Origin: Micromonospora peucetia
GTDB lineage: Bacteria; Actinomycetota; Actinomycetes; Mycobacteriales; Micromonosporaceae
Length of the DNA stretch: 64,000 bases
NCBI RefSeq assembly: GCF_900091625.1
Contig: NZ_FMIC01000002.1
Location: 5,518,001-5,582,000, forward strand
Direction of reading: 5' to 3'
This document shows, piece after piece, positions 1 through 20,027 of this stretch. The first letter of the stretch is position 1; each line of letters starts with the position of its first letter. Made by a program: the position numbers and the translations under genes. The notes under the pieces were generated by a model. The model did no database searches. It had not been told where the DNA came from and worked only from the letters and a program-made list of their open reading frames with translations.

Positions 1-1
1 C

Positions 2-289
2 ATCCGACCCCAGATGCGCGACGACCTCGCCGGCAACCCCGAAGCACGCGAGGGCATGGCCCGCTTCAACGCCGCCCTGCAGATCGGCTACTTCCTGCTC
101 GCCGTCCGCGCCGCCGGTCTGGCCGCCGGCCCCATGGCCGGCTTCGACGCCGCCGGCATCGACCGCGAGTTCTTCGCCGACAGCACCTGGAAGACCCTGC
201 TCGTGGTCAACATCGGCCGCCCCGGCGAGAACGCCTGGTTCCCGCGCCTGCCCCGCCTCGACTACACCGACGTCGTCCGGCACGCCTGA
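2..289 (+). CDS. C-terminal part of a malonic semialdehyde reductase-like nitroreductase (cut by window edge)
   Basis: This is the last 95 or so codons of a gene entering from the left, open back to the first base. The residues (FNAALQIGYFLLAVRAAGLAAGPM, followed by a GFD turn and a VVNIGRPGENAWFPRLPR tail) fit the C-terminus of the RutE/HadB type of FMN-dependent nitroreductases, which reduce malonic semialdehyde or related aldehydes with NAD(P)H. The AAGPM segment and the NIGRPG strand form part of the flavin pocket in this family. The N-terminus, and so the substrate class, cannot be judged here. It converges on the TSUP transporter gene, leaving about 40 bases between the two stops. Confidence 0.75.
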   Translation: MRPQMRDDLAGNPEAREGMARFNAALQIGYFLLAVRAAGLAAGPMAGFDAAGIDREFFADSTWKTLLVVNIGRPGENAWFPRLPRLDYTDVVRHA

Positions 290-332
290 GACGCCCCACC
301 CACCAACAACCCGACCAGTGGGTGGCGACCCC

Positions 333-1112
333 TCAGGCCGCCACCCACTGGTCGAAGCCCAACCTGCCGACCAACGCCACCACCACGACCAACAACACGA
401 CCCGCACAAAACCCGAACCACGCCGCAACGCCATCCGCGCCCCCAACGCGGCCCCGGCGATGTTGCACACCGCCATCGCCGCCCCGAGCAGCCACCACAC
501 GTGCCCGGTCGCCGCGAACACCACCAACGCGCCCAGATTCGTGCCCACGTTCACGACCTTCGCCATCGCCGAACCATGCACGAAGTCCGCACCCACCAGC
601 GCCGTGAACGCCACCACCAGAAACGTCCCCGTCCCCGGACCCACCAGCCCGTCGTACAACGCGATACCCACCCCGGCCACCAGCACCGCCACACCCACCC
701 GCACCCGGGTCCGCCGATGCGGCAGCGACACCACCCCCAACCGCGGACGCAGCACCACGAACGCCGCCACACCCACCAGCACCACCAACACCACCGGCCG
801 GTACGCCGACGCAGGCACCGCCCCCGCCAGCGCCGCACCCACCCCCGCACAACACATCGCCAACACCGCCGACGGCCCCGCCACCGCCCAGTCGATCTTC
901 GTGGACCGCGCGTACGTCACCGCCGCCGTCGTCGTACCCGCGATCGCCGTCAGCTTGTTCGTGGCCAACGCCGACACCACCGGCATCCCCGGCACCGCCA
1001 CCATCAACACCGGCAACAGCAACAGGCCACCACCACCCACCACCGCGTCGATCCAACCGGCCATGGCGGCCACGGCGAGCAGGGTGGTCAGCGACAAAGG
1101 ATCCACATCCAC
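333..1112 (-). CDS. TSUP (TauE/SafE, YfcA-like) membrane permease
   Basis: This 259-residue integral membrane protein has the build of the TSUP family: two half repeats, each opening with hydrophobic helices and a glycine-rich GGGG motif (AVVGGGGLLLLP near residue 25; a matching LYDGLVGPGTGTFL near 150), and N-K-L-T (ATNKLTAIAGTT) after the first helix pair, typical of YfcA-type members. The family exports sulfite or organosulfonates; the substrate here is unknown. The start is GTG. About eight membrane helices are apparent and there is no signal peptide. It is divergent from the neighbouring endonuclease/exonuclease/phosphatase gene with about 210 bases between starts, so both promoters probably lie there. 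No sulfur gene is adjacent. Confidence 0.85.
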   Translation of the reverse strand: MDVDPLSLTTLLAVAAMAGWIDAVVGGGGLLLLPVLMVAVPGMPVVSALATNKLTAIAGTTTAAVTYARSTKIDWAVAGPSAVLAMCCAGVGAALAGAVPASAYRPVVLVVLVGVAAFVVLRPRLGVVSLPHRRTRVRVGVAVLVAGVGIALYDGLVGPGTGTFLVVAFTALVGADFVHGSAMAKVVNVGTNLGALVVFAATGHVWWLLGAAMAVCNIAGAALGARMALRRGSGFVRVVLLVVVVALVGRLGFDQWVAA

Positions 1113-1324
1113 GGGCCGTCATTCTTCCCACCGGCACCCGCCCCACGACCCCACCTGTGGCCAGCCTCACCAGCGCCGACCAGCACCACCACATCACATG
1201 CTCACCGACCCCGAACCCGCCGCAGCCACACACCCACCGCCCCCAACGCCACGAACAACAGCACCGAGCAGAACAACACCTTCAACACCGGGTAACCCTC
1301 CCACCGCCACGTAGGGTGCAAAGC

Positions 1325-2104
1325 GTGCGCCTGGCCACCTTCAACCTGCTGCACGGCCGATCCCTCACCGACGGACTCGTCGACCCCGACCGGCTCACCG
1401 CCGCCGTCACCGCACTCGACGCCGACGTCCTCGCCCTCCAAGAGGTCGACCGCGACCAGAGCCGCAGCGGCAAACTAGACCTCACCGCCATCGCCGCCCG
1501 CGCCCTCGACGCCAGCGAACACCGCTTCGCCGCCGCTGTCGTCGGCACCCCCGGCGAACAGTTCCGCCCCCTGACCCACGACGACGACGGACACGGCGAA
1601 CCCTGCTACGGCGTCGGCCTCGTCACCCGCCACCGCGTCCACACCTGGCAGGTCACCCGACTACGCCCCGCCCCCGTACGCTCACCCGTCTACGTCCCCG
1701 GCCCCGGCGGCGGACTCATCCTCCTACACGACGAACCCCGCGTCCTGCTCGCCGCCGTCCTCGACACCCCCCACGGCCGACTCACCGTCGCCGCCACCCA
1801 CCTGTCCTTCGTCCCCGGCTGGAACGCCCACCAACTCCGCCAGAGCGTCCGCGCCCTACGCACCCTGCCCGCCCCACGCATCCTCCTCGGCGACCTCAAC
1901 CTGCCCGCCGGCGCCGCCCGGCTCCTCACCGGCTGGCGCCCCCTCGGCCGCCGCCCCACCTACCCGGCGGGGCAACCCCGCGTCCAACTCGACCACATCC
2001 TCGCCGACCGCCACGGCCTCGACCAGCTGCCACCCGTCACCGCCGTACACACACCCCTGTCCGCCATCTCCGACCACCGCCCCCTCCTGGTTGACCTCGG
2101 CTGA
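1325..2104 (+). CDS. Endonuclease/exonuclease/phosphatase (EEP) family hydrolase
   Basis: Starting at GTG 1325 the product has 259 residues and begins directly with the EEP strand RLATFNLLHGR. Further signature pieces are ALQEVDRDQSRSG (metal-binding Glu), ATHLSFVPGWN, LLGDLNLPAG (catalytic D-x-N) and SAISDHRPLLVDL (terminal S-D-H), so the whole Mg-dependent phosphodiesterase active site is present. Members act on nucleic acids, phosphoinositides or sphingomyelin; substrate cannot be assigned. No signal peptide is apparent, suggesting a cytoplasmic enzyme. Upstream in-frame codons are low-complexity Pro/His/Gln-rich sequence and look non-coding, so the later start is preferred. Confidence 0.85.
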   Translation: MRLATFNLLHGRSLTDGLVDPDRLTAAVTALDADVLALQEVDRDQSRSGKLDLTAIAARALDASEHRFAAAVVGTPGEQFRPLTHDDDGHGEPCYGVGLVTRHRVHTWQVTRLRPAPVRSPVYVPGPGGGLILLHDEPRVLLAAVLDTPHGRLTVAATHLSFVPGWNAHQLRQSVRALRTLPAPRILLGDLNLPAGAARLLTGWRPLGRRPTYPAGQPRVQLDHILADRHGLDQLPPVTAVHTPLSAISDHRPLLVDLG

Positions 2105-2199
2105 CCAGCAGCGGAGTGGACACCCCCTCGCCATCGGTCGCGTGACGCTCACCCCACCCCGCGTTGACACGACCCACGGCATCGGCGAAGGTCTCTGGC

Positions 2200-3780
2200 G
2201 TGACGGCACCCACCCCAGGCGCGACAAGCCACCACGACACCACCACCGAACAACGCCGATACGTGATCATCGGAGCCGGACCAGCCGGCCTCCAACTCAG
2301 CTACTACCTCCAGCAGGCCGGCTGCGACTACATCACCCTCGAACGCGCCGCCGCGCCCGCCGAGTTCTTCCGCCACTTCCCCCGGCACCGCCGGCTCATC
2401 TCCCTCAACAAAGTCCACACCACCAGCACCGACCCCGAGATCCGGCTGCGCTGGGACTGGAACTCCCTGCTACACGAACCCGCCGACCTGCCCTTCGCCA
2501 AGTACAGCAGCGAATACTTCCCGCACGCCGACGACATGGTGCGCTACCTCGCCGAATTCCAGCGCCACCACCAACTCGCCGTACGCTTCGACACCACCGT
2601 CGAACAGATCGAACGACTCGACGACGGCTTCCTCGTACACACCCCCGGCCGCACCCTGCACTGCCGCTGCGTCATCGTCGCCACCGGCTGGGGCCCGCCG
2701 AACATCCCCGCCATCCCCGGCATCGAACACGCCACCGGCTACGAGGACATGCACACCGACCCCGCCGCATACACCGGCCAACGCGTACTCATCCTCGGCA
2801 AGGGCAACTCCGCGTTCGAAACCGCCTCGGCCATCCTCGGCCACGCCGCCATGATCCACCTCGCCAGCCCCCGACCGCTGCGCCTGGCCTGGAACACCAA
2901 ACACCCCGGAGACGTCCGCGGCCACCACGGCGCCGTCCTCGACAGTTACCAGTTCAAGACCCTCCACTCCGTCCTCGACTGCGTCATCGACGAGATCCGC
3001 CCCCTCGGCAACCGCTACCAGGTGCACCTCACCTACACCCACGCCGACAACGAAACCGCCGTCATGGAATACGAATCCGTCCTGCGCTGCACCGGCTTCG
3101 CCATGGACACCACCCCGTTCGGCCCCACCTGCCAACCCGACATGGTGCCCAGCGGCCGGCTACCCACCACCACCGGCGACTGGCAGTCCACCAACATCGA
3201 CGGCCTCTACTTCGCCGGCACCCTCGCCCAGGACCGCGACTTCAAAAAAGCCTCCTCCGCGTTCATCGACGGCTTCCGGTACAACCTGCGCACCCTCACC
3301 GCCCTGCTCCTCGAACGCTACGAGGGCATCCCACTGCCACACGCCCACATCGACCGCGACGCCGACACCGTCACCACCCTCGTCCTCGACCGGGTCAACT
3401 GGAGCTCCGCACTGTGGACCCAGTTCGAATTCCTCTGCGACGCCCTCGTCGTCGACCCCGACGGACACCTACACCACTACACCGACCTGCCCGAGGACCA
3501 CGTCCGGGCCCGCTTCCGCGACCACCCGCACTACTACACCGTCAGCCTGCGCTGGGGCCGCGACGACTACGGCGACGTGTTCGCCATCGAACGCCACCCC
3601 CAACCCGACCGGGCCGCGGAAAGCGCCTTCATCCACCCCGTCATCCGCCGCTACCACGGCGACACCCTCGTCAACGAACTACACCTGCTCGAAGACCTGC
3701 TCGCCGAATGGCGCCGCCCCGACCGCCACATCGAACCCCTACGCGAGTACTTCGCCCGGGAACTGCACCGCGACCGCTGA
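2200..3780 (+). CDS. FAD-dependent NAD(P)-binding oxidoreductase (flavin monooxygenase-like)
   Basis: Start GTG 2200 is chosen because GAAGG lies eight bases upstream; product 526 residues. An FAD-binding Rossmann motif (IGAGPAG, about residues 24-30) opens the protein and a second dinucleotide motif (LGKGNSA, about 199-205) lies mid-protein, with the linking ATGWGPPNIPAIPG segment of class B flavoenzymes. The region FAGTLAQDRDFKKASSAFIDGFRYN resembles the FOXRED2-like branch of pyridine nucleotide-disulfide/FMO proteins. The last 170 residues form a less typical C-terminal extension. A soluble oxygenase or oxidoreductase is likely; substrate unknown. It stands alone between the EEP hydrolase and the convergent ligase gene. 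Confidence 0.82.
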   Translation: MTAPTPGATSHHDTTTEQRRYVIIGAGPAGLQLSYYLQQAGCDYITLERAAAPAEFFRHFPRHRRLISLNKVHTTSTDPEIRLRWDWNSLLHEPADLPFAKYSSEYFPHADDMVRYLAEFQRHHQLAVRFDTTVEQIERLDDGFLVHTPGRTLHCRCVIVATGWGPPNIPAIPGIEHATGYEDMHTDPAAYTGQRVLILGKGNSAFETASAILGHAAMIHLASPRPLRLAWNTKHPGDVRGHHGAVLDSYQFKTLHSVLDCVIDEIRPLGNRYQVHLTYTHADNETAVMEYESVLRCTGFAMDTTPFGPTCQPDMVPSGRLPTTTGDWQSTNIDGLYFAGTLAQDRDFKKASSAFIDGFRYNLRTLTALLLERYEGIPLPHAHIDRDADTVTTLVLDRVNWSSALWTQFEFLCDALVVDPDGHLHHYTDLPEDHVRARFRDHPHYYTVSLRWGRDDYGDVFAIERHPQPDRAAESAFIHPVIRRYHGDTLVNELHLLEDLLAEWRRPDRHIEPLREYFARELHRDR

Positions 3781-3880
3781 CCCCGACCGGGCGTGCCGGA
3801 CCAACCCCGCCAACCCACATGCCCGGCCAACCCCACACCCGCACACCGTCACCAGGGGAGGGGGCCCGGCCACGACACAC

Positions 3881-4996
3881 CTACGCCGGCTGCCGCTCAT
3901 CCACCCCCGTCCGCGCGACCAGAAAATCCACCACGTCCGCGAGCCGACCCCGACGACCCGCCGCCTCCCGCTGCCGCACCGCACCACAACCCCCCGCCAA
4001 CAACCGCTCCAACCAGCCCCGCACCAACTCCTCGTCCCCACCCGCCCGCAACACCGGCGCCAACCAGTCCACCACCTCGCCCAACACCTCCCGCGCCGGA
4101 CGCAACCGACCCGTACCAACCTCCAACAGCGCACCCTCCAGACCGTCGCGCGCCGCCCGCCAGTACGCCGCCCGCAACCACTCACCGGCAAGCTCCGGAC
4201 CATGATCACCCCGGTCCACCGCCTCCAACCCACGCACCACCAACGCCCGCACCAACGCCGCCACCAACGCCGACTCCCACGCCGACACCGGCACGTCCGC
4301 CACCCGCACCTCCAACGTCGGATACACCACCGACGGCCGGATGTCCCAGAACAGCGTCCCCGGATCCACGATCGCCCCCGCCGCCGACAACATCTCCACG
4401 ACCCGCTCGTAGTGCGCCACCGACGTGAACCGCGGCGGCGGCCCCGCCACCGGCCACCGCGGCCACACCATCGACCGCCAACTCGCGTAACCCGAATCCC
4501 GCCCCTCCCAGTACGGCGAGTTCGCCGTCACCGCGATCAACAACGGCAGATAAGCCCGCAGATGGTTGCTGACCAGCAACGCCCGCTCCCGGTCCGGCAC
4601 CTCCACATGCACGTGCAACGCGCAGATCGCCAACTCGTCGTGCAACCCCCGGAACGTCGCCGTACCCCGCTCCTGCCGAGGCCCCCGCGTCACCGGCGGC
4701 GCCGTCGCCCCCGGCAGCACCGGCGTGCCCGTGGCCACGATCCGCAACCCGTCGACCGCCGCACACTCGGCCACCACCCGACGAGCCTCCACCAACTGCT
4801 CCAACACCCCCCGCACCGACGACGTCGGATCCGTCTTCGTCTCCACGTGCAGGGACGTGATCTCACCCGACACCCGCGAACCCAACCGCGCCGCCGCCCG
4901 ATCCACCACCGCCCCCGCACCCGGCACCACACCCCGACTCACCGGATCGACCAGCAGAAACTCCTCCTCCACCCCCAACCGCGGACCCGACACCAC
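3881..4996 (-). CDS. Carboxylate-amine ligase / glutamate-cysteine ligase-like protein (YbdK family)
   Basis: The 371-residue product opens with GPRLGVEEEFLLVDP, the first ATP-grasp-like strand of the GCS2/YbdK family, followed by SLHVETKTDP, LHVHVEVPD (metal-binding His/Glu), TANSPYWEGRDSGYASWR and LFWDIRPSVVYPTLEVRVAD, all characteristic. These enzymes ligate glutamate to cysteine or another amine with ATP; in actinomycetes, which make mycothiol rather than glutathione, members serve other or unknown roles. GTG 4996 is preferred because GGAGG ends ten bases upstream; ATG 5026 is an alternative. The open frame continues to 5470 with no start supported by homology. Divergent from folD, with the riboswitch between. 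Confidence 0.83.
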   Translation of the reverse strand: MVSGPRLGVEEEFLLVDPVSRGVVPGAGAVVDRAAARLGSRVSGEITSLHVETKTDPTSSVRGVLEQLVEARRVVAECAAVDGLRIVATGTPVLPGATAPPVTRGPRQERGTATFRGLHDELAICALHVHVEVPDRERALLVSNHLRAYLPLLIAVTANSPYWEGRDSGYASWRSMVWPRWPVAGPPPRFTSVAHYERVVEMLSAAGAIVDPGTLFWDIRPSVVYPTLEVRVADVPVSAWESALVAALVRALVVRGLEAVDRGDHGPELAGEWLRAAYWRAARDGLEGALLEVGTGRLRPAREVLGEVVDWLAPVLRAGGDEELVRGWLERLLAGGCGAVRQREAAGRRGRLADVVDFLVARTGVDERQPA

Positions 4997-5212
4997 ACCA
5001 TCCCCGCCTCCCTGCACCGGCACCATGGCCTCCACTCGCGACACCGCAACGACCGCCCGACACGAACCAGGCCGACAGGGTAGCCCGAACCGGTGACGAA
5101 CGGGACACCCACAGTCAACGCCCCGACACAGGTCCCGCACCACGGTCACCCCGCCGACCCACAACCGCACCGGGGCACACCCCACCCGAACCGCTGTGGC
5201 AAGCTGACACCA

Positions 5213-5290
5213 GACGCGACTGGCGGCCAGAGGATGGGCACCAAACCATCGGGGAGCTCCACGCGCGGAGGTCGACCGCCTGGGCCCCGC
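5213..5290 (+). promoter_or_regulatory. ZTP (pfl) riboswitch
   Basis: The leader of the downstream folD paralogue carries the conserved blocks of the pfl/ZTP aptamer in order: GACTGGCG (5218-5225), TGGG (5235-5238), ACCATCGGGGAGC (5245-5257) and, after a variable hairpin, CCGCCTGGGC (5276-5285). The last block can form the pseudoknot with the conserved loop. The aptamer ends about eight bases before the purine-rich ribosome site, so translational control is plausible. Known members sense ZTP/ZMP, a signal of 10-formyl-tetrahydrofolate shortage, and commonly precede folD, purH and glyA, so the context fits. Confidence 0.93.
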
Positions 5291-5305
5291 CGGCGAAGGA
5301 GCACC

Positions 5306-6199
5306 ATGCCCACCGCCCGACTCCTGCCCGGCGCACCCGTCGCCGAACGCATCCTCACCGACGTCGCCGCCGGTGTCACCGCCCTGCGCGCCGCCGGCAC
5401 CACCCCCGGCCTCGCCACCATCCTCGTCGGCGACGACGACGCCAGCGCCGGCTACATCCGCATCAAACAACGCCAGGCCACCGAACTCGGCTTCACCTCA
5501 CCCCACGTGCACCTGCCCGCCACCGCCACCCAGGCAGACCTGCACCACGCCATCGCCGACTTCAACACCGCACCCGACGTGCACGGCCTGCTCATCCAGC
5601 ACCCCATCCCCGCACACCTCGACTACGACCGCGCCCTGCAGACCATGGACCCCGACCTCGACGTCGACGGCATGCACCCCCTCAACATGGGACGCCTCGC
5701 CCTCGGCCTGCCCGGACCCCTGCCCTGCACACCCGCCGGCATCGAAGCCCTGCTCGCCTTCCACGACATCCCCGTCGCCGGCCACGACGTCGTCATCCTC
5801 GGCCGCGGCGCCACCCTCGGCCGCCCCCTCGCCCTGCTACTCACCCAGAAACGCCCCACCGCCAACGCCGCCGTCACCGTCGTACACACCGGCGTACCCG
5901 ACTGGGCCACCCACACCCGCCGCGCCGACATCCTCATCGCCGCCGCCGGCGTCCCCGGCATCATCCGACCCGAACACGTCCGCCCCGGCGCCGTCGTCAT
6001 CGGCGGCGGCGTCCGCTACGAAGGCCGACGCCTCCTGCCCGACGTCGACGAAAGCTGCGCCGAGGTCGCCGGCGCCATCACCCCCCGCGTCGGCGGCGTC
6101 GGCCCCACCACCGTCGCCATGCTCTTCCGCAACGCCCTCGACGCCGCCCGCCGCACCACCGGCCACCCCGCTCCCGCACAACGGCCCGACGCCCGGTAA
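5306..6199 (+). CDS. folD: Bifunctional methylenetetrahydrofolate dehydrogenase/methenyltetrahydrofolate cyclohydrolase
   Basis: The 297-residue enzyme interconverts 5,10-methylene- and 10-formyl-tetrahydrofolate. Start ATG 5306 has a GAAGGAG site. The catalytic set aligns with the usual FolD numbering: Tyr50 and Lys54 (AGYIRIK), Gln98 (LLIQHPIP) and Asp121 (DVDGMHPLNMG). The Rossmann nucleotide motif is GRGATLGRP near 167-175 and the C-terminal PRVGGVGPTTVAML closes the folate site. Several motifs differ from canonical forms (IQHPIP for VQLPLP, GRGATLG for GRS-x-x-VG, GGVGPTT for GGVGPMT), as in a divergent paralogue. Regulation by the ZTP riboswitch implies induction when formyl-folate is short. 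A perfect hairpin follows the stop. Confidence 0.93.
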   Translation: MPTARLLPGAPVAERILTDVAAGVTALRAAGTTPGLATILVGDDDASAGYIRIKQRQATELGFTSPHVHLPATATQADLHHAIADFNTAPDVHGLLIQHPIPAHLDYDRALQTMDPDLDVDGMHPLNMGRLALGLPGPLPCTPAGIEALLAFHDIPVAGHDVVILGRGATLGRPLALLLTQKRPTANAAVTVVHTGVPDWATHTRRADILIAAAGVPGIIRPEHVRPGAVVIGGGVRYEGRRLLPDVDESCAEVAGAITPRVGGVGPTTVAMLFRNALDAARRTTGHPAPAQRPDAR

Positions 6200-6209
6200 A
6201 ACACCGCGG

Positions 6210-6249
6210 CCCCCGGTGCGGCGAACGACCCAGCTCGCCGCACCGGGGG
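6210..6249. terminator. Intrinsic terminator-like hairpin after folD
   Basis: Arms CCCCCGGTGCGGCGA (6210-6224) and TCGCCGCACCGGGGG (6235-6249) pair perfectly over 15 bp around a ten-base loop. There is no U tract, which is usual for actinomycete hairpin terminators. It begins about ten bases after the folD stop. Confidence 0.8.
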
Positions 6250-6258
6250 GACAGGCAC

Positions 6259-6353
6259 CCGACTCCGGCATCCGCACATCCATCACCACCACGTCCGGCC
6301 GGCAGGCTGCCACGCACATTCGTCAACGACTCCTGCACGATCCGCGTCATCAA
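6259..6353 (-). pseudogene. Scar of a deleted two-component system (kinase fragment joined to regulator fragment)
   Basis: On the minus strand one frame reads MTRIVQESLTNVR (about 6312-6350), the N-box start of a NarL-type histidine kinase ATPase domain. Directly after, in another frame, comes VAACRPDVVVMDVRMPESG (about 6259-6315), the phospho-acceptor strand of a response regulator. The order kinase then regulator is that of an operon, but everything between is missing, so a large internal deletion is the simplest reading. Neither piece has a credible start or full domain. It lies in the roughly 240-base gap between the folD terminator and the cupin gene, which holds nothing else I recognise. 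Confidence 0.5.
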
Positions 6354-6495
6354 GGAAGAAGGCGCGTTCGGGCTCTCGTCCACGATCACGACGCCCCGGT
6401 GTACGCCGCCCGGTGAGCAGCCCGCGAGGATTTTTTCATCATGCGTAGTTCCTAGCGCTCACGCCGAGCGTACGAGATGGCGAAGGATGAGCCCC

Positions 6496-6891
6496 ATGAG
6501 TAACGAACCGATCCTCCTCAGCAAGGCTCTGGCATCCTTCGACGCCCTGTGGAGCCCTCGCATCGTCACGCGGGTGAACGACTACGACGTCCGCATCGCC
6601 AAGGTCGAGGGCGAACACATCTGGCACGTCCACGACAACACCGACGAGTTCTTCCTGGTACTCGACGGAGAACTACACATCTCCTTACGCGAGCCCGCAG
6701 GGGAGCGCACGGTCCTGCTCCCACAGGGTGCGGTCTTCACCGTCCCCCGAGGCACCGAGCACAGACCTCATGCTCCGTGCGGCGCCGCAATCCTTCTGTT
6801 CGAGCCCGCCGGGACACCGACCGTGGGCGATCGCCACGACGAGATCCCGGACCACGTGGACGCAACGACCGGGCACGCACTCAACACCTGA
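6496..6891 (+). CDS. Small cupin-domain protein
   Basis: The 131-residue product is a single conserved beta-barrel: metal-site motif 1 is HVHDNTDEFFLVLDGELHI (two His and Glu present) and motif 2 is LPQGAVFTVPRGTEHRPHA. ATG 6496 is chosen because GAAGG lies nine bases upstream; the ATG at 6487 abuts that site. Cupins of this size act as isomerases, dioxygenases or ligand sensors and the sequence alone does not choose. It probably stands alone; the convergent recombinase gene ends 100 bases downstream. Confidence 0.85.
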   Translation: MSNEPILLSKALASFDALWSPRIVTRVNDYDVRIAKVEGEHIWHVHDNTDEFFLVLDGELHISLREPAGERTVLLPQGAVFTVPRGTEHRPHAPCGAAILLFEPAGTPTVGDRHDEIPDHVDATTGHALNT

Positions 6892-6991
6892 GCTGACGGC
6901 CTCCAAGGCGGGTTGCCGCAAAGAACTGTCTTCGATCGCCGCCGCCACCACACAGCGGAGACGTGACGGTGCAGAAAAGCAGCACCCGCCC

Positions 6992-8002
6992 TCACGGCCG
7001 TACGCCCGGCTCCGCCGGCAACAACCCCGCCAACGCCCGATTGGTGCGGTTGGAGCGGACCGCGTCGCGCTGCTGCCCGGCCGTCACCTCGATGTACGCC
7101 TGCGACGACGCCAACGACGCGTGCCCCAGCAACCGCATGATCTCCGCCGCGCTCGCCCCGTCCTCCGCCAACCGCGTCGCGAAGGTGTGCCGCAACGCGT
7201 GCAGGCGCGCCCCGCGCGGCACCCGGTCGTTGATGCCCGCCCGCCGGTAGCATGACTCCACCAGGTACTGCAGCCCACCCCGGCGCAGCGGCTCACCCTG
7301 ACGATCCACCAGCAGCGGCGCGTCCGGCCGCACCGTCCGCGACCCGAACCGGCGCACCCGGCTGTCCAGGTAGCCCACCAGCACCCGGTCCAGATCCGGC
7401 TCGATCGGCACCACCCGTGGCCGGCCGCCCTTGCCGGCCACGTCGACCCGCCGTTCGCCCGGACGACCGGTCAACGAACCCACCCGCAGCGCCAGCAACT
7501 CGGACAGCCGCAACCCCGCGCAGAGCGCCAACGCCAGCACCGCCAGGTCGCGCTCCGGCCACGGGTCACGCTGCCGGCCCTCCTGCCGGGCCACCGAGGC
7601 GAGCAACTGCTCGGGGGTGTCCGCGCCCCGCAGCGGCTTGGGCGCAGGGAGAGGCGCCCGGGGACGACCGACCGCCGGCATCGGGTTGCCGGCGACGATC
7701 CCGTCGGCGACCAGGAAGGAGAAGAAACTGTTCCAGGTGGACCAGGCGCGGTGTACCGAGGCGGCGGCACGGGGAGTGGCGAACCGGGCGAACGCCGCGC
7801 GCATGACGCGGGGAGTGAGGGCGGCGAGGGGCAGCGCGTCGAGGGGGAGGGGAGGGGTGGCTTCCTCGGCGGCCAGCGCGGCGACGGCACGCAGGTCCCG
7901 CCGGTACGCCTCCAGGGTGTGGGGGGAGGGCTTGCGGGTGGCGCGGGCCGTCAGGAACTCCTCGATCAGCCATTGTACCGATTCGTCCTGTTTGTCATGC
8001 AT
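6992..8002 (-). CDS. Xer-like tyrosine recombinase next to dif
   Basis: The 336-residue protein has an N-terminal SAM-like core-binding domain (about 10-110; TLEAYRRDLRAV) and the catalytic domain of phage integrases. The full active site is visible: Arg165 (CAGLRLSELLALR), Lys191 (GKGGRPR), His268 and Arg271 (LHALRHTFATRL), His294 (LLGHASLASS) and nucleophile Tyr303. The ATG at 8002 overlaps a dif-like palindrome, and the frame stays open further upstream, so the start is not certain. The size and compact form resemble XerC/XerD/XerH more than large phage integrases. Lying about 650 bases from a strong dif candidate, it may act there, or may be the integrase of an element that used dif as its target. 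Confidence 0.88.
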   Translation of the reverse strand: MHDKQDESVQWLIEEFLTARATRKPSPHTLEAYRRDLRAVAALAAEEATPPLPLDALPLAALTPRVMRAAFARFATPRAAASVHRAWSTWNSFFSFLVADGIVAGNPMPAVGRPRAPLPAPKPLRGADTPEQLLASVARQEGRQRDPWPERDLAVLALALCAGLRLSELLALRVGSLTGRPGERRVDVAGKGGRPRVVPIEPDLDRVLVGYLDSRVRRFGSRTVRPDAPLLVDRQGEPLRRGGLQYLVESCYRRAGINDRVPRGARLHALRHTFATRLAEDGASAAEIMRLLGHASLASSQAYIEVTAGQQRDAVRSNRTNRALAGLLPAEPGVRP

Positions 8003-8021
8003 AAGGGATATTATGCATGAT
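7994..8021. repeat. dif-like 11-6-11 palindrome at the recombinase start
   Basis: Left arm GTCATGCATAA (7994-8004), spacer GGGATA, right arm TTATGCATGAT (8011-8021). Ten bases of the two arms are perfect inverted repeats. The two 11-base arms, six-base spacer and inner TTAT ends match Xer recombination sites. It overlaps the ATG of the recombinase and precedes the divergent ATPase by about 40 bases, so it could instead be an operator for both. It is strikingly AT-rich for this genome. Confidence 0.6.
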
Positions 8022-8059
8022 TTTCGGGTTAGTCGGCAACGGTGGGAGAGGGGGAGAGC

Positions 8060-8653
8060 ATGCGGCGGTACGTACTGACCGGCGCGCCCGGGGCGGGCAA
8101 GACGACGCTCGCCGACGCGCTGCACCGTCGGGGATGGCTGGTCGTCAGCGAGGCGGCAACCGACGTCATCGCGGCGGAGCAGGCACGCGGCGTCACCGAA
8201 CCATGGTGCGCGGCGGCCTTCGTCGACACGGTGGCGCGGCTCCAACGGGAGCGCCGGGAGGTGCCCGGGCCGCCCGGGTCCGTGCAGATCCACGACCGGT
8301 CGCCCCTGTGCACGCTGGCCCTCGCGCGGTATCTGGGCCGCCCGCCGGGGCGCGTGCTCAACGACGAGATCGAGCGCGTGCTCCGGGAGGGCGCCTACCA
8401 GCGGCAGGTGTTCATGGTCCAGCCGCTGGGCTTCGTGACGCCCACCGCCGCCCGTCGGATCAGCTACCGGGACTCGCTGGCGTTCGCCGACGTGCACGAG
8501 CAGGTCTACCGGGCGCACGGCCACGAGCTGATCGTCCTCCCGGCCGCGCCGGTACGAGTCCGGGTCGCGCTGGTGGAGGAGCATTTGCGGCGCCTCGCCG
8601 ACCTGCCGCCCGACGAGGCCGAGGGAGGGCCCGATCCTGCTTACTTGACATAA
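8060..8653 (+). CDS. AAA family ATPase (AAA_28-type P-loop kinase-like)
   Basis: The 197-residue protein opens MRRYVLTGAPGAGKTTLADAL, with Walker A at residues 8-16. The later IHDRSPLCTLALARYLG and the C-terminal RDSLAFADVHEQVYRAHG fit the AAA_28 group of small NTPases related to nucleotide kinases and NadR-like domains. Start ATG 8060 follows GGGGAGAG. It is divergent from the recombinase, and its last codons (TTG ACA TAA) lie inside the dif candidate, so the coding end is shaped by that site. Function is unknown; it might be a nucleotide kinase or a conflict-type NTPase. Confidence 0.82.
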   Translation: MRRYVLTGAPGAGKTTLADALHRRGWLVVSEAATDVIAAEQARGVTEPWCAAAFVDTVARLQRERREVPGPPGSVQIHDRSPLCTLALARYLGRPPGRVLNDEIERVLREGAYQRQVFMVQPLGFVTPTAARRISYRDSLAFADVHEQVYRAHGHELIVLPAAPVRVRVALVEEHLRRLADLPPDEAEGGPDPAYLT

Positions 8654-8670
8654 TGTGCATTATCGAATCT
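8643..8670 (-). other. Candidate chromosomal dif site (XerCD target)
   Basis: Read on the minus strand: AGATTCGATAA (8670-8660), spacer TGCACA (8659-8654), TTATGTCAAGT (8653-8643). The right arm TTATGTCAAGT and the block CGATAAT before it match the actinobacterial dif consensus as I remember it in about 23 of 28 positions, including the full XerD-side arm. It overlaps the stop codon of the ATPase gene and lies about 50 bases from the convergent uvrA paralogue. Dif marks the terminus, where chromosome dimers are resolved. Confidence 0.8.
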
Positions 8671-8722
8671 GGCGGGTCGGGCCAGGAACCCCTTCTCACG
8701 GGCGTGCGCGAAGGCCTCCCGG

Positions 8723-11110
<2,388 letters not shown>

Positions 11111-11258
11111 CCTGTCTCCATCTGTCGGGCCGCTTCGCGATCTGGTGTCGGCGTCGCCTGGCTCGGTCTCACCGGCGTCGAGCGTTTCTGGTTCGTCGGC
11201 GCGGTCGTGGCACCGGGCGCGGTGCCACGACCGGAGGCATCTGTGCGGTGGGCTGCGG

Positions 11259-11681
11259 TCAGCGGACGGATGAGCGCAGCTCCTGAAGGCGGATCATGTT
11301 GCCCGCCGGGTCGCGGAAGGCGCAGTCGCGGACCCCGTACGGCTGCTCGGTCGGCTCCTGGACCACCTCGGCGCTGCTGGCCTCCAGCTTCGCGAAGGTG
11401 TCATCGAGGTCGGCGGTGGCCAGGTTGACGCCGAAGAAGCTGCCCTTGGCCATCAGTTCGGAGATGGTGCGGCGCTCGTCGTCGGTGAGGCCGGGGATGG
11501 CGGCCGGCGGGTGCAGGACGATGGCGGTGTCGGGCTGGTCGGCGGGGCCGACCGTGATCCAGCGCATCCCCTCGTATCCGACGTCGTTGCGGACCTCGAA
11601 GCCGAGGGTGTCGCGGTAGAAGGCCAGGGAGGCGTCCGGGTCGTTGTGCGGGAGGAAGCTGGAGTGAATGGTGATGTTCAT
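11259..11681 (-). CDS. VOC (glyoxalase/bleomycin resistance) family protein
   Basis: The 140-residue product starts MNITIHSSFLPHNDPDASLAFYRDTLGF, a typical first beta-alpha-beta unit of a VOC module, and ends VRDCAFRDPAGNMIRLQE with the second-module metal Glu. The family includes glyoxalase I, extradiol dioxygenases and drug-binding proteins; function here is open. The gene directly follows the AraC regulator, whose stop is five bases upstream, so the two form an operon and the regulator probably controls a stress linked to this protein. A GTG three codons earlier is a less likely start. Confidence 0.85.
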   Translation of the reverse strand: MNITIHSSFLPHNDPDASLAFYRDTLGFEVRNDVGYEGMRWITVGPADQPDTAIVLHPPAAIPGLTDDERRTISELMAKGSFFGVNLATADLDDTFAKLEASSAEVVQEPTEQPYGVRDCAFRDPAGNMIRLQELRSSVR

Positions 11682-11686
11682 GGCAG

Positions 11687-12136
11687 TCACGCTAGGTGCG
11701 GCGCGGGCGCCGGCGCTTCTTGATTCCTGATCGGTCTGGTGACCTGTTTCGCCACGCAGGACGGCATTCCCACGGTCGCACGCGTCTCTTGGCGCCGGTA
11801 GACGCTGGGCGGTACGCCGACCAGTTCGGTGAAGCGGGTGCTGAAGGTGCCCAGTGACGAGCAGCCGACCGTGAAGCAGATTTCGGTGACGCTGAGGTCG
11901 CCACGGCGCAGCAGGGCCATTGCCCGTTCGATGCGCCGGGTCATCAGGTAGCTGTACGGCGACTCACCGTAGGCGGCCCGGAACTGACGGCTGAGGTGTC
12001 CGGCCGACATGTGCGCGCTGCGGGCGAGCGCCTCGACGTCCAGCGGCTGCGCGTACTCCCGGTCGATCCGGTCGCGGACGCGGCGCAGCCGCGCGAGGTC
12101 ACGCAGGTGCTGTTCCGAGGCGGGTCTGCTGGTCAC
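11687..12136 (-). CDS. AraC-family transcriptional regulator, short form
   Basis: The product (149 residues from GTG 12136) consists almost wholly of the two helix-turn-helix motifs of AraC/XylS: LDVEALARSAHMSAGHLSRQFRAAYGE and LSVTEICFTVGCSSLGTFSTRFTELVGVPPSVYRR. No ligand-binding domain is present, so it may respond to dosage or a partner, as with MarA/SoxS-like forms. It is the first gene of a two-gene unit with the VOC protein. The long frame running through it and upstream is antisense to the next gene and was ignored. Confidence 0.86.
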   Translation of the reverse strand: MTSRPASEQHLRDLARLRRVRDRIDREYAQPLDVEALARSAHMSAGHLSRQFRAAYGESPYSYLMTRRIERAMALLRRGDLSVTEICFTVGCSSLGTFSTRFTELVGVPPSVYRRQETRATVGMPSCVAKQVTRPIRNQEAPAPAPHLA

Positions 12137-12249
12137 ATGCGGAATCGTACGTCGCGCCGGGGGCACCCGGCGGCGTTGCTCATGCGTGCGGGCGTGCCTG
12201 ATGCTTCCGCCGGGTGCGGGAGCCCGGTCTCCCCCACCCGGCGTGGTGT

Positions 12250-14916
12250 TCAGGCCGTGTCGAGTGCGTGGCGCAGGCGTCGGGCCTCGGTGCCGAGGCG
12301 GCTGGTCCCGCCCCGGGCGGCGAGCTCGTCCAGACCGGGCACCTCGATCCGGGTGCCGGTCGTGCTGGCCGTCTCCGCCGCCAGGCTCAGCAGGTCGGGC
12401 AGGCCGCGCGGGGGTGTGGGCGTGGCGAGTATCGCCGGCAGTGCGGCGGCGGTCAGCCGCCACACGGTCAGCGGCGCTCCGGCCAGGGCGGCGTCGCGTA
12501 GTGGTTCGAGTGCCCTGGTCAGCTTCACCAGTTGTCCGGCGATCAGCCGGCCGAGTTGCTCGCCTGTCCCGGTGGCGTCGAGTTGTCCGGCTCCGGCGAG
12601 CCCGAGCAGGGCGTCGAGGGTGGCGACCCGGTCGGCGCCGTGGCGTGCCCCGAGGCCGTAGGCCAGTGCGAGGTCGAGGGCCACGCCGCCGGGGCCGCTG
12701 CTCTCGGCGAGCAGTGGCAGCACGGCGGTGCCGTCGCGCTGGTCCATGTCCGCGGTGGCGGCCACGATGGGCAGGGTGTACGCGGCGATCACGCCTCGGT
12801 GCCCGGGCAGGATCGACGGCCAGAGGTGTGCCCAACCGGAGTGTTCGTCGCCCCCGAGGGGTGCCGGATCGGCGGTCAGCAGGCCGTACCGGTCGTCGTG
12901 TCCGTCGGGTGGGCGCAGCTCGACGAGAATGCGCCTGGGTGGCAGTTGGTCGTGTTCCCAGTCGTAGCTGCCCTTGCGGGACCGCCGGGTGACGGTGGTG
13001 GCGCGCATGACGGGTTGTGGCAGTCCGCCGGTGCGAAGCCAGGTGGCGAGCCGCTCCCCCGCCGGTGTGCCCAGTGCCGTGGCTTTGCCGGCGACTGCCT
13101 CGTCGGTGTCGGCGGGTAGCCGCAGCAGTGCCTGGGTGAGGTCCCAGTGCCAGGGTGTGCGGTCGCCGAGCGCCGCGAGCCGTTCCAGCAGGGTGAGCGG
13201 GTCGAGCAGGCCGTTGGCCGAGGTGGGGGTGGCGAGCAGGCCGGGGTGTCCGGGTTCGTTGGCGTGGGCGCCGATCTCGAGGAGGCGGGCCCGCAGTAGC
13301 CGGTGTGGTGCGGGCATCCGGGGGTTGGTGGCGATCAGTTCCGGCTGCGGTGTCGTCCGGTCGGTGCGGCGTACGGCGGCGAGCAGTGCCTCCCACCGGC
13401 TGCGTCGTCGGGCCTGCTGGTCGGTGGCTGCGGCGGTGGTGAGCACGTCGACGACCACCTCGCAGAGGCAGAGGGGGTCGTAGCGGTGTTCGTTGCCCCA
13501 GGACCAGTGTCGGCGTTCGATGACGGGGGTGAGGGCGGTGTGCACCCGGGTGCTGTCGGTCGTGGTGAGCCGGACGAGTCCGTCGAGGATGCGGTCCAGG
13601 GGTGCGCCCTGTGACTGGGTGCCGAGCAGGGCGGCGACCTCTTCGGCGAGTTCGTCGACGTCGGTGATGGGGGTGGGTGCCGGTGCGGGTGGTGCGGGTG
13701 GGGGCAGGTCGTCGGCGCGTGGTCGGGCGAACGCCCGGCCGGTGCCGGTTGCCGTGGGGTCGTGTCCGTGGCGGGTGGCCAGGGTGTTGGCGCGGTCGCG
13801 CAGCTCGACGGCGGGGTGTTCGGCGGCGACGGCGATGACTTCGGCGATCTGGGTGGCGCGGTCGCGGTGTTGGCGGGCCAGCCGGTCGAGCCAGCTGAGC
13901 TGGGCCTTCACGAGTGTTTTGTCTGGTCGTAGCAGCACGTCCCGGGAGGTGTCGAGAACGGCGTCGATTTCGAGGTCGGGTAGTTGTCGTAGTGCCTTCT
14001 GCGCCATGGTGGCGGTCGGGGCTGGTGCGTCGGTGAGCAGGCGGAGGTAGTCGGTGGCGCGGGTGGCGACCTCGGCGGTGGTGGGTTCGAGCTCGGTGAG
14101 CAGGATGGTGAAGGCGCGCAGGGCCACCGCCCGGTCGCCGCGCAGCAGTCGGCCGATCGCACCGTCGATCAGGGTCTTGCGGTCGATGGAGCCCTCGGTG
14201 GCGAGCCGGGCCAGCGCGGTCGGCAGGACGTGCCGTTGTCGTTCGTCCCCGGTCGTGGTGACCTCGTCGAACATCATCCGGGAGCCGAGGCCGTCCACCT
14301 CGAACAGTCGGGGCAGCATGGCGGTGAGGAACGGGTCGGCGCGTAGCCGCTCGATCAGGGGTGTCGACTGGTTGGCGCGTCGGTCCGGCTGTTCCACCGA
14401 GTTCAGCCACAGCTCGACGAACCGGTCGTTGGTTGGTGGCGCGGTTTCCGTGACACGCAGCAGTGCGGCGAGGAACCGCCAGCGCTCGACCCAGGTCTGC
14501 TGGTTGGCTTTCGCGGCCAGCCGGTGGGCCAGGTCGCCGAGCCAGGTGATGCCGCGTTCCTCGGCGACCTGTGACACCAGGGTGGCGGCGCGTTCACCGT
14601 AGGGGTTGATCGTGTTGCGGGTGAGGATCGTCGCGGCCTGTGCGGCGGTGGGTAGGCAGCCGACCACGGCGGCTGCCAGGGCGGTGCTGGAGCCGGCGGT
14701 CCACCAGGTGGCTTGTTGCCGCTGCTTGAACCAGGTCGTCAGGTCGCCGCCGATTTCCCGGCGGCGCTGCTCGGGCAGCTCGGCCAGGGCCGCCGCGACC
14801 TGGTTGGCGAGGCCGCTCTGGACGAGGTCGAGCAGGTCACTGGTGCCGCCGGCGGCCAGTTCCCGACGGCGCCGTAGGGTGCTCTTCATCAGCAGTGTCT
14901 GCTGCGCCCGGCTCAC
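12250..14916 (-). CDS. Large DUF6493-like helical-repeat protein paired with a SWIM zinc-finger protein
   Basis: This 888-residue soluble protein shows no catalytic motif. It is alpha-helical and leucine/alanine-rich with HEAT-like spacing (for example ALRAFTILLTELEP, AQKALRQLPDLEIDAVLDTS), a Pro-rich linker near 420-440 and a C-terminal half with VVDVLTTAAATDQ and LRPPDGHDDRYGLL. I recognise it as resembling the DUF6493 family that accompanies SWIM-domain genes. GTG 14916 is chosen because it overlaps the upstream stop as GTGA with GAGGAG before it, a classic coupled start. The partner's nucleic-acid-binding motif suggests a joint role as scaffold and binder. No MoxR or VWA gene, often linked to SWIM genes elsewhere, is nearby. 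Confidence 0.72.
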   Translation of the reverse strand: MSRAQQTLLMKSTLRRRRELAAGGTSDLLDLVQSGLANQVAAALAELPEQRRREIGGDLTTWFKQRQQATWWTAGSSTALAAAVVGCLPTAAQAATILTRNTINPYGERAATLVSQVAEERGITWLGDLAHRLAAKANQQTWVERWRFLAALLRVTETAPPTNDRFVELWLNSVEQPDRRANQSTPLIERLRADPFLTAMLPRLFEVDGLGSRMMFDEVTTTGDERQRHVLPTALARLATEGSIDRKTLIDGAIGRLLRGDRAVALRAFTILLTELEPTTAEVATRATDYLRLLTDAPAPTATMAQKALRQLPDLEIDAVLDTSRDVLLRPDKTLVKAQLSWLDRLARQHRDRATQIAEVIAVAAEHPAVELRDRANTLATRHGHDPTATGTGRAFARPRADDLPPPAPPAPAPTPITDVDELAEEVAALLGTQSQGAPLDRILDGLVRLTTTDSTRVHTALTPVIERRHWSWGNEHRYDPLCLCEVVVDVLTTAAATDQQARRRSRWEALLAAVRRTDRTTPQPELIATNPRMPAPHRLLRARLLEIGAHANEPGHPGLLATPTSANGLLDPLTLLERLAALGDRTPWHWDLTQALLRLPADTDEAVAGKATALGTPAGERLATWLRTGGLPQPVMRATTVTRRSRKGSYDWEHDQLPPRRILVELRPPDGHDDRYGLLTADPAPLGGDEHSGWAHLWPSILPGHRGVIAAYTLPIVAATADMDQRDGTAVLPLLAESSGPGGVALDLALAYGLGARHGADRVATLDALLGLAGAGQLDATGTGEQLGRLIAGQLVKLTRALEPLRDAALAGAPLTVWRLTAAALPAILATPTPPRGLPDLLSLAAETASTTGTRIEVPGLDELAARGGTSRLGTEARRLRHALDTA

Positions 14917-16250
14917 ACCCGCTCCTCGGCCCGCTCGACGGTCAGCATCCGGGTGGCCAGGGCGTGCCGGCACGGCCCCCGTTGACCGCGGTGCTTGGCC
15001 CACCAGGGGCAGGTGCAGGTGAGGTTGCCGTCGGGCAGTTGGCGGGCCCGGTAGACCTGGTCGCCGCTGCGGATCGTGGCGGTCGTTCCGTCGAGTTCGA
15101 CGGCTCCGGTGTCGAGGAGTGCGCGGGCGCCGACCAGGCGGGGGTTGTCGCGTTCGGCGCGGCCCGCGTCGTAGGGCATGACGCGGTGGAAGTATGCGGC
15201 CTCGGAGACGTCGTATCCGACGCGGCCGGCGGTGCCGAGCTGGGCGAGTGCGGCGCGGACCCGGGCCGGGTCGATGCCGGTGTCGCTCGCCAGCCGGTCC
15301 ACGTCGATGGTGGGGTCCCAGGAGAGTACGGCGGTGACGAGGTTGGCGTCGTCGACCACGTCGTCGCCGGCGAGTGCGGTGAGTGCGGCGCCTTCGCCGG
15401 AGAATCCGCGGTACGGCTCGGGTGAGAGGGTGAGGGAGAGTCGCAGCGCGCCGGTGTCGAGTTCCCAGGTGCTCGGTACGGGTGCTGAGCCGGCGGCGAC
15501 GGTCGGTCCGTACACCCGCAGGGTCTGGGCGAAGCGGAGCATGCCGCGCAGGGCGGTCAGGCGGCTCGCTCCGGCGAGGCAGACGGCGCCGGGGACGGGC
15601 CGGGAGGTCAGTCGCAGCGACTTTCCGGCCGGCACCGCCCAGAGCACGGACCGGTCGCTGGTGGTGGGCAGTCGGCGCAGGAACGTCGCGGCCTCGGTGG
15701 CGGGGATCTCGGCTCGGGGTTCGAACGCGGCGGCCAGGATCTGGACCTCGGCGAAGCCGCGTAGCCAGCGCACCGGGAGGGGGACCTTCTTTTCCACGAC
15801 CGGGCCGTCCATGGTGGAGACGGTCAGGTCGTCGGGGCCGACGGACAGGTGCAGGGGGTCGAGGCCGCCGACGCGGGCCAGTGCCTCCCGGAGTGGGTTG
15901 TTGACGTCGACGTTGGTGGTGCCGTGCTCGACCACGTCGCCGTCGATGCCGGCGGGCAGGGTGTCGAGGCGGGCGTAGACGCCGCAGCAGCCGGAGAAGG
16001 ATTCGAACCGGAGCCGGTCGCGGCTGCCGGTGACGACGGGGTCGAGGCTGGCCGGGCTGACCGGCCGGTGGTAGCGGGTCCGGGCCACCTCGGCGACGGC
16101 CAGTAGGCCGACGGCTGCGGCCTGCGGGGTGGTGAGGAACCCGGTGAAGAAGCGGGGGTTCGGGGTGGGGCCGCCGCTGGTCTGCAGGGCGAGTCCGCCC
16201 TGGCCGAGGGCGGAGGATCCGAGATACCGGTACGTCTGGACTGCGCTCAC
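14913..16250 (-). CDS. SWIM zinc-finger protein
   Basis: The 445-residue protein ends with a clear SWIM finger, LTCTCPWWAKHRGQRGPCRHALA: Cys-x-Cys, then Cys-x-His, a small zinc module that binds DNA or protein. The preceding 370 residues form a conserved but uncharacterised region (LGSSALGQGGLALQTSGG at the N-terminus, and FESFSGCCGVYARLD near 110-125). Start GTG 16250. It overlaps the DUF6493-like gene by four bases, so the two are translated together and likely work as a complex. A strong hairpin just upstream isolates the pair from the SDR operon, so it has its own promoter. Confidence 0.82.
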   Translation of the reverse strand: MSAVQTYRYLGSSALGQGGLALQTSGGPTPNPRFFTGFLTTPQAAAVGLLAVAEVARTRYHRPVSPASLDPVVTGSRDRLRFESFSGCCGVYARLDTLPAGIDGDVVEHGTTNVDVNNPLREALARVGGLDPLHLSVGPDDLTVSTMDGPVVEKKVPLPVRWLRGFAEVQILAAAFEPRAEIPATEAATFLRRLPTTSDRSVLWAVPAGKSLRLTSRPVPGAVCLAGASRLTALRGMLRFAQTLRVYGPTVAAGSAPVPSTWELDTGALRLSLTLSPEPYRGFSGEGAALTALAGDDVVDDANLVTAVLSWDPTIDVDRLASDTGIDPARVRAALAQLGTAGRVGYDVSEAAYFHRVMPYDAGRAERDNPRLVGARALLDTGAVELDGTTATIRSGDQVYRARQLPDGNLTCTCPWWAKHRGQRGPCRHALATRMLTVERAEERV

Positions 16251-16289
16251 GTTCGCGGACAGTAGAGGACGCCTGCGACAGGAACCAGC

Positions 16290-16313
16290 GGCGCGGTCGT
16301 CGCCGACCGCGCC
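16290..16313. terminator. Hairpin between the SDR gene and the SWIM operon
   Basis: GGCGCGGTCG (16290-16299) and CGACCGCGCC (16304-16313) pair perfectly over 10 bp around a four-base loop. It lies after the SDR stop on the minus strand and 40 bases before the SWIM start, suiting termination of the SDR transcript. Confidence 0.6.
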
Positions 16314-16359
16314 GGTGGGATTCTGATCTGGTCCAGGGTTTCCGGGGCTGGGTGGCGGG

Positions 16360-17088: not shown

Positions 17089-17156
17089 GGGCTTGTTCTT
17101 CTCCTGCTGTCTGACGGGCGACGTCACCGGGCGGCGCGTCGTGGGGTTGGTGGCGC

Positions 17157-18088: not shown

Positions 18089-18187
18089 GACCCAGACGTT
18101 ATCATTCTCAATAGTGATAGCGGTAGCGGGAGGCAGGATCGCATACGCTTCGGCGCACTGCGGTGTCGACGGTGGAGGTGCGCGAAA

Positions 18188-18649: not shown

Positions 18650-18721
18650 TCTTCCGCTTGTCGGGCCGGACTGGTATCAAGGCAGGCGTCTGAACAGGTG
18701 TACGAGGGGAAGAGGTTGCTG

Positions 18722-19408: not shown

Positions 19409-19419
19409 GCCCGGTGGTA

Positions 19420-19460: not shown

Positions 19461-19465
19461 CGTGT

Positions 19466-19927: not shown

Positions 19928-19947
19928 GGGGTGAGCCTACCGTAATC

Positions 19948-20005: not shown

Positions 20006-20027
20006 ATTTTCGGTGAAGGGATCCCTC

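Follow-up and report, generated by a model that had tools for sequence, protein, structure and literature searches.

The dif site of Micromonospora peucetia lies between islands of reversed strand bias that may record synthesis outward from the terminus

The 28-bp sequence at positions 8643-8670 of the window (the whole 64,000-nucleotide stretch analysed here, which is C2:5518001-5582000 of the Micromonospora peucetia contig C2, 7,269,546 b long) is a genuine dif site, ordinary in kind, and it sits between hyperskewed islands, with a GC skew of ~-0.35 on the left and ~+0.2 on the right and an origin-like polarity. On each side, the strand that leads 5'->3' outward from dif is depleted of A and C and enriched in G and T. 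This bias is located at the terminus, is strand-specific, is independent of gene direction and recurs in relatives. It appears to be mutational, and it could have been left by DNA synthesis directed outward from the dif/Xer locus. A working dif together with such a footprint is, as a whole, the account that we regard as rather probable. As far as our literature search reached, a dif-centred hyperskew is unreported: no earlier report of one in Micromonosporaceae or in the probable Frankiaceae was found in the openly licensed literature, including the available parts of PMC3025954, PMC3364876, PMC3317982, PMC4182475, PMC5993296 and PMC10331603.

The elements that the argument needs are the following.
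8643..8670, minus strand: dif, 28 bp in the form 11-6-11; pattern match, single copy, conserved in relatives
8060..8653, plus strand: ATPase of the AAA_28 family (PF13521, 102.9 bits), with its TAA stop in dif
6992..8002, minus strand: dif-linked Xer-like tyrosine recombinase, reading away from dif (start chosen by eye)
8723..11110, minus strand: UvrA-like ABC ATPase, in island C (at 35 of the searched loci it lies on the right of dif)
5315..6199, plus strand: folD, in island B
3881..4960, minus strand: GCS2, glutamate-cysteine-ligase-like, in island B
C2:5491258-5505565: island A, G+T-rich on the plus strand, the pgsA to gcvP block
C2:5514901-5525607: island B, whose part in the window is 1..7607; plus strand C+A-rich
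7729..19981 (C2:5525729-5537981): island C, plus strand G+T-rich, GC skew +0.18
C2:5589349-5603079: island D, C+A-rich on the plus strand, the fxsA-lnt-lysine aminomutase block

The plus strand of 8643-8670 reads ACTTGACATAA TGTGCA TTATCGAATCT. On the minus strand this is AGATTCGATAA (XerC arm), the centre TGCACA and TTATGTCAAGT (XerD arm), exactly as a first-pass annotation of this DNA had placed it; the arms are named by analogy with known dif sites. The same annotation had taken the XerD-side arm for the actinobacterial one, and 10 of its 11 bases are indeed identical to those of the dif published for Actinoplanes SE50/110, CAGGTCGATAATGTATATTATGTCAACT (PMC3364876, available part). A loose dif pattern (≤3 mismatches) had a single match in the window, and 100 dinucleotide shuffles gave no match at all. 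With the same tolerance the 28-mer matched once in the whole 7.37-Mb, two-contig genome, where the 28-mer read backward as a control gave no match. A chance occurrence was rejected, since the site is unique in the genome and absent from the shuffles. Dif is at C2:5526643 and the sole dnaA match at C2:2069260, the antipode of which is at ~5.704 Mb; if C2 is a complete circle, dif is 177 kb from the antipode, or 2.4% of the 7.27-Mb chromosome.

Among 121 genomes of the genus (120 taken from a larger group, plus our own), exactly one match with ≤3 mismatches was present in 100 and none in 21. Uniqueness of the 28-mer and its presence in related species, by which the annotation had proposed to check the site, both agree with a chromosomal dif. 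Two dif copies flanking a mobile element were not found, at ≤3 mismatches, in our genome or in the 121 genus genomes. A looser pattern had matches in 88 of 150 genomes of the family (28 of 44 genera) and in 101 of 197 genomes of the class. Conservation was analysed in 80 named loci, the best 80 of 114 retrieved with the Xer protein; these and the other genome sets overlap in species, and the loci are hence not independent. The mean major-base frequency was 0.89 over the 28 columns of dif, 0.55 over the 25 b to the left and 0.43 over the 22 b to the right, a contrast that is partly built in, given that the alignment pattern covers most dif columns. We have very little doubt that the 28-mer would act as the chromosomal dif of this Micromonospora, its biochemistry being taken over from the known dif/Xer system. 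As a separate observation, the 25 bases before the XerD arm (0.55) often carry GAGGGGA or a G run, as seen in the first 40 of the 80 loci, which is possibly a motif or a terminator.

A strand-polar motif converges on this site. Strand-polar 8-mers were collected from two regions of our own chromosome, one from 40 to 200 kb left of dif and the other from 90 to 250 kb right of it, and the top ones were TGGGGGAG (26:0) and CGGGGGAG (23:1). In the window, the heptamer GGGGGAG is distributed as follows.
7843..8056, plus strand: three GGGGGAG left of dif, at 7843, 7922 and 8050, all pointing to dif
10052..58040, minus strand: nine GGGGGAG right of dif, at 10052, 12229, 13054, 18925, 20180, 27307, 40818, 55167 and 58034, all pointing to dif
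All 12 copies are thus directed at dif, and with a shuffle expectation of 22 the motif is oriented, not frequent. In the part of the terminus outside the discovery regions (-40 to +90 kb), 31 copies pointed toward dif and 1 away. Within ≤10 kb on each side in the 80 named loci the count was 623 toward and 6 away, and of the 79 loci in which the flip of orientation could be located, 78 had dif within its bracket; the named loci were not blind for GGGGGAG, CTCCCCCG having previously been among their strand-asymmetric 8-mers. Permuted controls in the same loci gave toward:away counts of 17:34 (AGGGGGG), 106:190 (GAGGGGG), 195:101 (GGAGGGG), 242:71 (GGGAGGG), 282:115 (GGGGAGG) and 112:17 (GGGGGGA).

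In wide profiles, [TC]GGGGGAG pointed toward dif in 75 of 77 copies in our genome (partly in-sample), 38 of 40 in genome G006, 33 of 33 in G153, 41 of 41 in G294 and 19 of 28 in G344. Over 19 sampled 20-kb pieces of our chromosome, 40 copies were directed toward dif and 6 away along the dnaA-dif axis. Outside the family, GGGGGAG counts (toward:away, ≤10 kb) were 43:7 in f18, 45:0 in f20, 11:1 in f2, 22:0 in f27, 31:1 in f17 and 29:1 in f26, f34 and f4 together; family members lacking a linked Xer gave 31:5. We conclude that the dif site is the convergence point of a motif of the FtsK-orienting type, which FtsK would read as GGGGGAG. The first-pass claim that the window holds the terminus is borne out by this convergence, together with the uniqueness of dif and its near-antipodal position to dnaA.

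The E. coli FtsK-orienting motif (KOPS) is GGGNAGGG. Here that sequence was enriched in the inward direction over the 80 loci, at 5.9 times expectation on the left and 2.6 times on the right (outward, 0.9 and 0.8 times), but it gave no clean flip in any of the five wide profiles and was rejected as the polar motif. As in the KOPS/AIMS systems described in the available part of PMC5993296, a strand-polar motif points to dif and flips across it; unlike there, GGGGGAG is the clearest motif, a candidate for FtsK, and it runs against the local composition bias. GGGGGAG is not present in the main text of PMC5993296 or PMC3025954, and its convergence may offer a simple dif locator for many actinobacteria.

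The stop codon of the AAA_28 ATPase gene, TAA at 8651-8653, is formed by dif positions 9-11, so that the overlap noticed in the annotation exists. Its explanation, that an insertion had made the ATPase frame end in dif, did not survive. An AAA_28 homologue was found near dif in the same orientation at only 27 of 121 loci searched (species overlap between sets), and its end varies: the stop is the TAA inside dif at 11 of the 27, lies 23-808 b before it at 12 and beyond it at 4. Dif is the constant partner and the gene the variable one, and therefore it is the gene that came to lie against dif; insertion of dif into the gene was rejected. As the sequence reads, dif has evidently supplied a stop codon to its neighbour.

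The chromosome around these elements is almost free of skew. In 19 sampled pieces of C2 the GC skew ranged from -0.023 to +0.020. Over a 464-kb stretch the 5-kb skew step peaks at 0.405, at a point 1.16 kb left of dif; at distances over 20 kb the best step was 0.258, and the maximum over 779 points of the 19 pieces was 0.241. Of the steps in the opposite sense the strongest, -0.324, falls between islands A and B, at 9.2 kb on the left of dif. The part of island B in the window has a GC skew of -0.26 overall, with -0.33 to -0.40 per kb at 0-6 kb, and weaker islands are found further right of island D. Bins of 2 kb exceeding 0.15 numbered 21 of 231 near dif vs 4 of 200 in 20 sampled pieces (the small contig C1 contributes one of these pieces and one of the four high bins); two of the high bins are in genes that, in our estimation, resemble those of an integrative element. 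Away from the terminus, a C+A-rich stretch of its own (L031 5180-10032, C2 ~3.605-3.610 Mb) holds genes that we take to be like an integrative element's.

The annotation had proposed to test whether the cumulative GC skew changes sign near dif, a shift that goes along with dif sites without defining them. A switch is present locally, 1.1-1.2 kb from dif, but its polarity is that of an origin, and the sampled chromosome has almost no skew to switch; a genome-wide skew switch at dif was rejected on that ground. The usual pattern is a G+T-rich leading strand (PMC5291525, available part), and the polarity at dif is the reverse. Papers on relatives use G+C skew to place oriC or to suggest replichores (PMC4182475 and PMC3364876, in the parts available), and other species may have a weak global skew. 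In comparison with actinobacterial XerC/XerD dif sites, the form 11-6-11, the conserved XerD-side arm, the single copy, the location opposite oriC and the converging polar motifs are the same. What differs here is that the sampled chromosome is nearly skewless, that the local switch is reversed and extreme, and that an extra Xer adjoins dif in most Micromonosporaceae loci seen.

The local switch recurs in relatives. Among 20 relatives of the genus, 19 have a negative skew over the left 5 kb; over the right 5 kb it is positive in 19, 7 of them at <0.05. In the named loci, the median skew 1-6 kb downstream of Xer was +0.256 (n=70 with enough sequence, none negative) and 1-7 kb upstream of Xer -0.161 (n=80, 3 positive). 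On average the left side switched inside the Xer gene, stayed at ~-0.25 out to ~4 kb and reached zero at ~8 kb; the right side started at 0.04 beside dif, rose to 0.20 by 3 kb and was down to 0.06 at 8.75 kb. In genome G100 (L084), dif is inverted relative to Xer and the skew blocks and lies ~2 kb inside one of them, and the switch remains at Xer. Twenty loci were examined from 12 further genera of the family. A homologue of Xer (53-77% identity) was present at ≤10 kb in 15 of them, and the majority of the 15 repeated the pattern, weakly in some (G184, G201, G214). The five loci lacking a linked Xer (genera g18 twice, g44 twice, and g23) gave weak, absent or opposite signals, with normal left polarity in g18 and part of g44, and a negative right side in g23.

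Outside the family, the pattern was found in f18, which we take to be Frankiaceae. All four f18 loci had a strong right-hand skew starting at dif (+0.12 to +0.47 per kb), and the left side was weakly negative in two of the four, so that the pattern is mainly one-sided. In two wide profiles the onset was within ~500 b of dif, and the skew was strongest beside dif and decayed over 14-22 kb. No Xer of the dif-linked kind was found in f18 genomes at E 1e-20, and the adjacent Xer was accordingly rejected as a necessary cause. Family f17 had a moderate version in 2 of 3 loci. In f20, f2, f27, f34, f4 and f26, 12 of 13 loci had weak normal polarity or none, bar single 1-kb bins. The 13th locus (L247 of genome G362, f2) was negative left of dif only, with -0.13 to -0.26 at 1-5 kb; the three other f2 loci seen lacked this pattern.

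The skew follows the DNA strand, not gene direction. At third codon positions of island B, read on the plus strand, the GC and AT skews were -0.65 and +0.88 in plus genes (n=3) and -0.40 and +0.78 in minus genes (n=4), with a background near 0.1. Pooling 20 genus loci (G100, whose dif is inverted relative to the others, was omitted), the GC/AT values to the left were -0.44/+0.46 in 69 plus genes and -0.24/+0.47 in 55 minus genes; to the right they were 0.02/-0.27 in 56 plus genes and 0.39/-0.39 in 72 minus genes. The folD gene was found left of dif at 38 loci, on the plus strand in 4 and on the minus strand in 34. On the coding strand its GC/AT skews were -0.77/+0.93 in plus copies and +0.53/-0.87 in minus copies, and its chromosomal GC bias was negative in 4 of 4 and 33 of 34, respectively.

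The skew also depends on the distance from dif. The keto-amino skew is -0.29 and -0.37 in two genes of the window that lie at -6.5 and -4.8 kb; in G006, where the homologues are at -79 and -75 kb, it is -0.07 and -0.03, the GCS2 homologue at -75 kb being unskewed. Conversely, other genes are skewed in G006 at <7 kb from dif, and unskewed or less so in our genome at 9-21 kb. In skewed zones the dinucleotides TT, GG, TG and GT are all up ~2-3 fold, and no single 7-mer is far above Markov expectation. The fourfold-site divergence from G006 was 0.255 where both genomes are skewed (18 genes), 0.295 where neither is (27 genes) and 0.370 where one genome is skewed or values are intermediate (30 genes). 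It is not raised where both are skewed, and therefore a higher overall mutation rate in skewed zones is not supported by this comparison.

A mechanism consistent with these observations can be proposed. FtsK, oriented by the converging GGGGGAG, would reach dif, where XerC/XerD would resolve chromosome dimers. The bias might come from A-to-G and C-to-T changes where a strand is exposed or displaced, or from G-T wobble errors in a nascent strand; both sources would need synthesis or unwinding that proceeds from the dif/Xer locus outward for ~8-20 kb, against the incoming forks. By strand geometry, an incoming fork would expose and enrich the opposite strand, and 5' resection of a break at dif would leave that opposite strand single; outward synthesis or unwinding fits. 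Outward synthesis from the dif/Xer locus is a reading that we favour tentatively, at a little under even chances, and its trigger is more tentative still: the likeliest source would be recombination-dependent or fork-fusion synthesis at the terminus, and an alternative trigger might be strand opening by the dif-linked Xer. In E. coli, synthesis of this kind is described when control by RecG or by exonuclease is lost. New divergent forks form there after fork fusion, with outward synthesis from the terminus when fusion is uncontrolled (PMC4999828), and recG mutants over-replicate the terminus (PMC4999828, PMC6125675; available parts of both). The likeness to this recG over-replication is synthesis outward from the terminus region; there the data come from mutants and replication profiles, whereas here there is a sequence footprint only, with a much shorter reach.

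Several findings count against outward synthesis from dif. In Micromonospora the left switch is inside the Xer gene and not at dif, and in G100 dif is inside one block with the switch at Xer. Islands A and D and an extra island of G006, all of inward polarity, are unaccounted for. The 12 loci in six other families that lack the pattern, the five Xer-less loci of the family and the divergence from G006 also weigh against it. The wider proposal, that in wild-type Micromonosporaceae and the probable Frankiaceae the dif locus regularly starts outward mutagenic synthesis over ~10 kb, like the flank of a small origin, with the linked Xer helping to open the left side in Micromonosporaceae, is in our view possible but doubtful. 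Replication's end and the last kilobases before division are hard to see in living cells. With whole-chromosome skew largely missing here, a terminus process stands out with its direction, reach and start, and base composition seems to record terminus events, which makes outward synthesis in wild-type cells directly testable.

The same outward direction could result from repair. Double-strand breaks linked to division near dif would be followed by strand-invasion repair synthesis outward, and this, not fork fusion, would make the skew. Each 3' end crossing the break would then make and displace the keto-rich strand. E. coli recB mutants lose the dif/TerC zone at division, at the point where skew and KOPS converge, and this loss depends neither on dimer resolution by XerCD nor on where the forks meet (PMC5638614, available part). 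Damage on the single strands left by 5' resection would, however, give the opposite polarity, and the mainly one-sided pattern of the probable Frankia is not obviously a break signature; we consider this origin of the skew unlikely.

Transcription outward from the Xer/dif locus, or R-loops, could instead expose the non-template strand and bias it. The left keto-rich strand does start inside the Xer gene and is the Xer sense strand in the 80 named loci, and islands A and D are largely co-directional with keto-rich coding strands. Against this, folD keeps its chromosomal bias in either orientation. On the right side of the probable Frankia, 17 of 21 genes, called by a simple GC-by-codon-position rule, face dif, against the keto-rich strand, and a homologue of an island-D gene (g187) has there kept its direction in a zone of opposite skew. 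In genome G426 the Xer gene faces dif, with C+A-rich third positions on its sense strand. On the evidence of folD, the island B genes, the probable Frankia and G426, we rejected gene direction or transcription as the main cause, and a transcriptional origin in general seems to us quite improbable.

The dif-linked Xer bears on whether the 28-mer is the XerC/XerD site at all, or a private site of this neighbour in the manner of XerS/difSL. The protein scores 161 bits with the XerC model and 135 bits with the XerD model, far below both family cut-offs, and has the catalytic R, K, H, R, H and Y in all 81 aligned sequences. All 20 genus relatives have its gene next to dif, 19 on the left and 1 on the right, and it lies within 3.2 kb of dif, on a constant relative strand, in all 80 named loci, which were found by Xer protein and cannot show how often dif lacks Xer. 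In an earlier survey xerC genes were mostly near dif (PMC3025954, available part), and in XerS/difSL and XerH/difH too the recombinase gene is linked to dif at the terminus (PMC2731167, available part); this genome departs from those systems in carrying XerC-like and XerD-like genes at other places and in having a site of the two-recombinase form. The XerD-like gene at C2:6754802 scores 309.7 bits with the XerD model and 273 with XerC, and the XerC-like gene at C2:457579-458607, in two pieces, 219.2 + 73.9 with XerC and 198.9 + 51.5 with XerD; all these scores are below the curated cut-offs, which only 4 of 14 (XerD) and 2 of 14 (XerC) controls passed. Because the genome has more than one Xer, linkage alone does not make the dif-linked one XerS-like. 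Dif-like sites and motif convergence also occur in genomes with no such Xer at E 1e-20, and a private site is very improbable. The dif-linked Xer looks like an additional Xer kept by selection, and it may have a role in dimer resolution, dif upkeep or the left-hand skew.

Imported DNA, such as an element integrated at dif with its own composition, is hardly tenable as the source of the skewed blocks. Some block edges are sharp, content differs between species, and of the high sampled bins mentioned above two are presumably in element genes and one on the small contig, but homologues of skewed genes are unskewed far from dif, no more than one dif copy was found per genome, and a given gene shows the local bias whichever way it reads. 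Equally hard to credit is a skew selected through oriented repeats, for FtsK or another protein, that make one strand G+T-rich: an oriented GGGGGAG does exist here, but it points the opposite way and so lies on the G-poor strand, and a repeated motif as the cause was rejected with the keto dinucleotides rising together, no outstanding 7-mer and a third-position AT skew, up to ~0.9, too general for a motif; no protein-binding sites that could make up most of the excess were seen.

Some observations concern the wider neighbourhood. Islands A and D consist of ordinary conserved genes with inward polarity, recur in G006 and, in another genus, G153, and lie ~8-80 kb from dif in the three genomes; the extra inward-polarity island of G006 is at -62 to -50 kb. 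In the small genome G380 (L248, f26), gcvP and other block-A homologues lie directly against dif, an arrangement that suggests an old neighbourhood of block A and dif. A further Xer-like recombinase of 332 aa is encoded in the window at 32618-33616 on the minus strand, ~24 kb right of dif, and is 32% identical to the dif-linked Xer.
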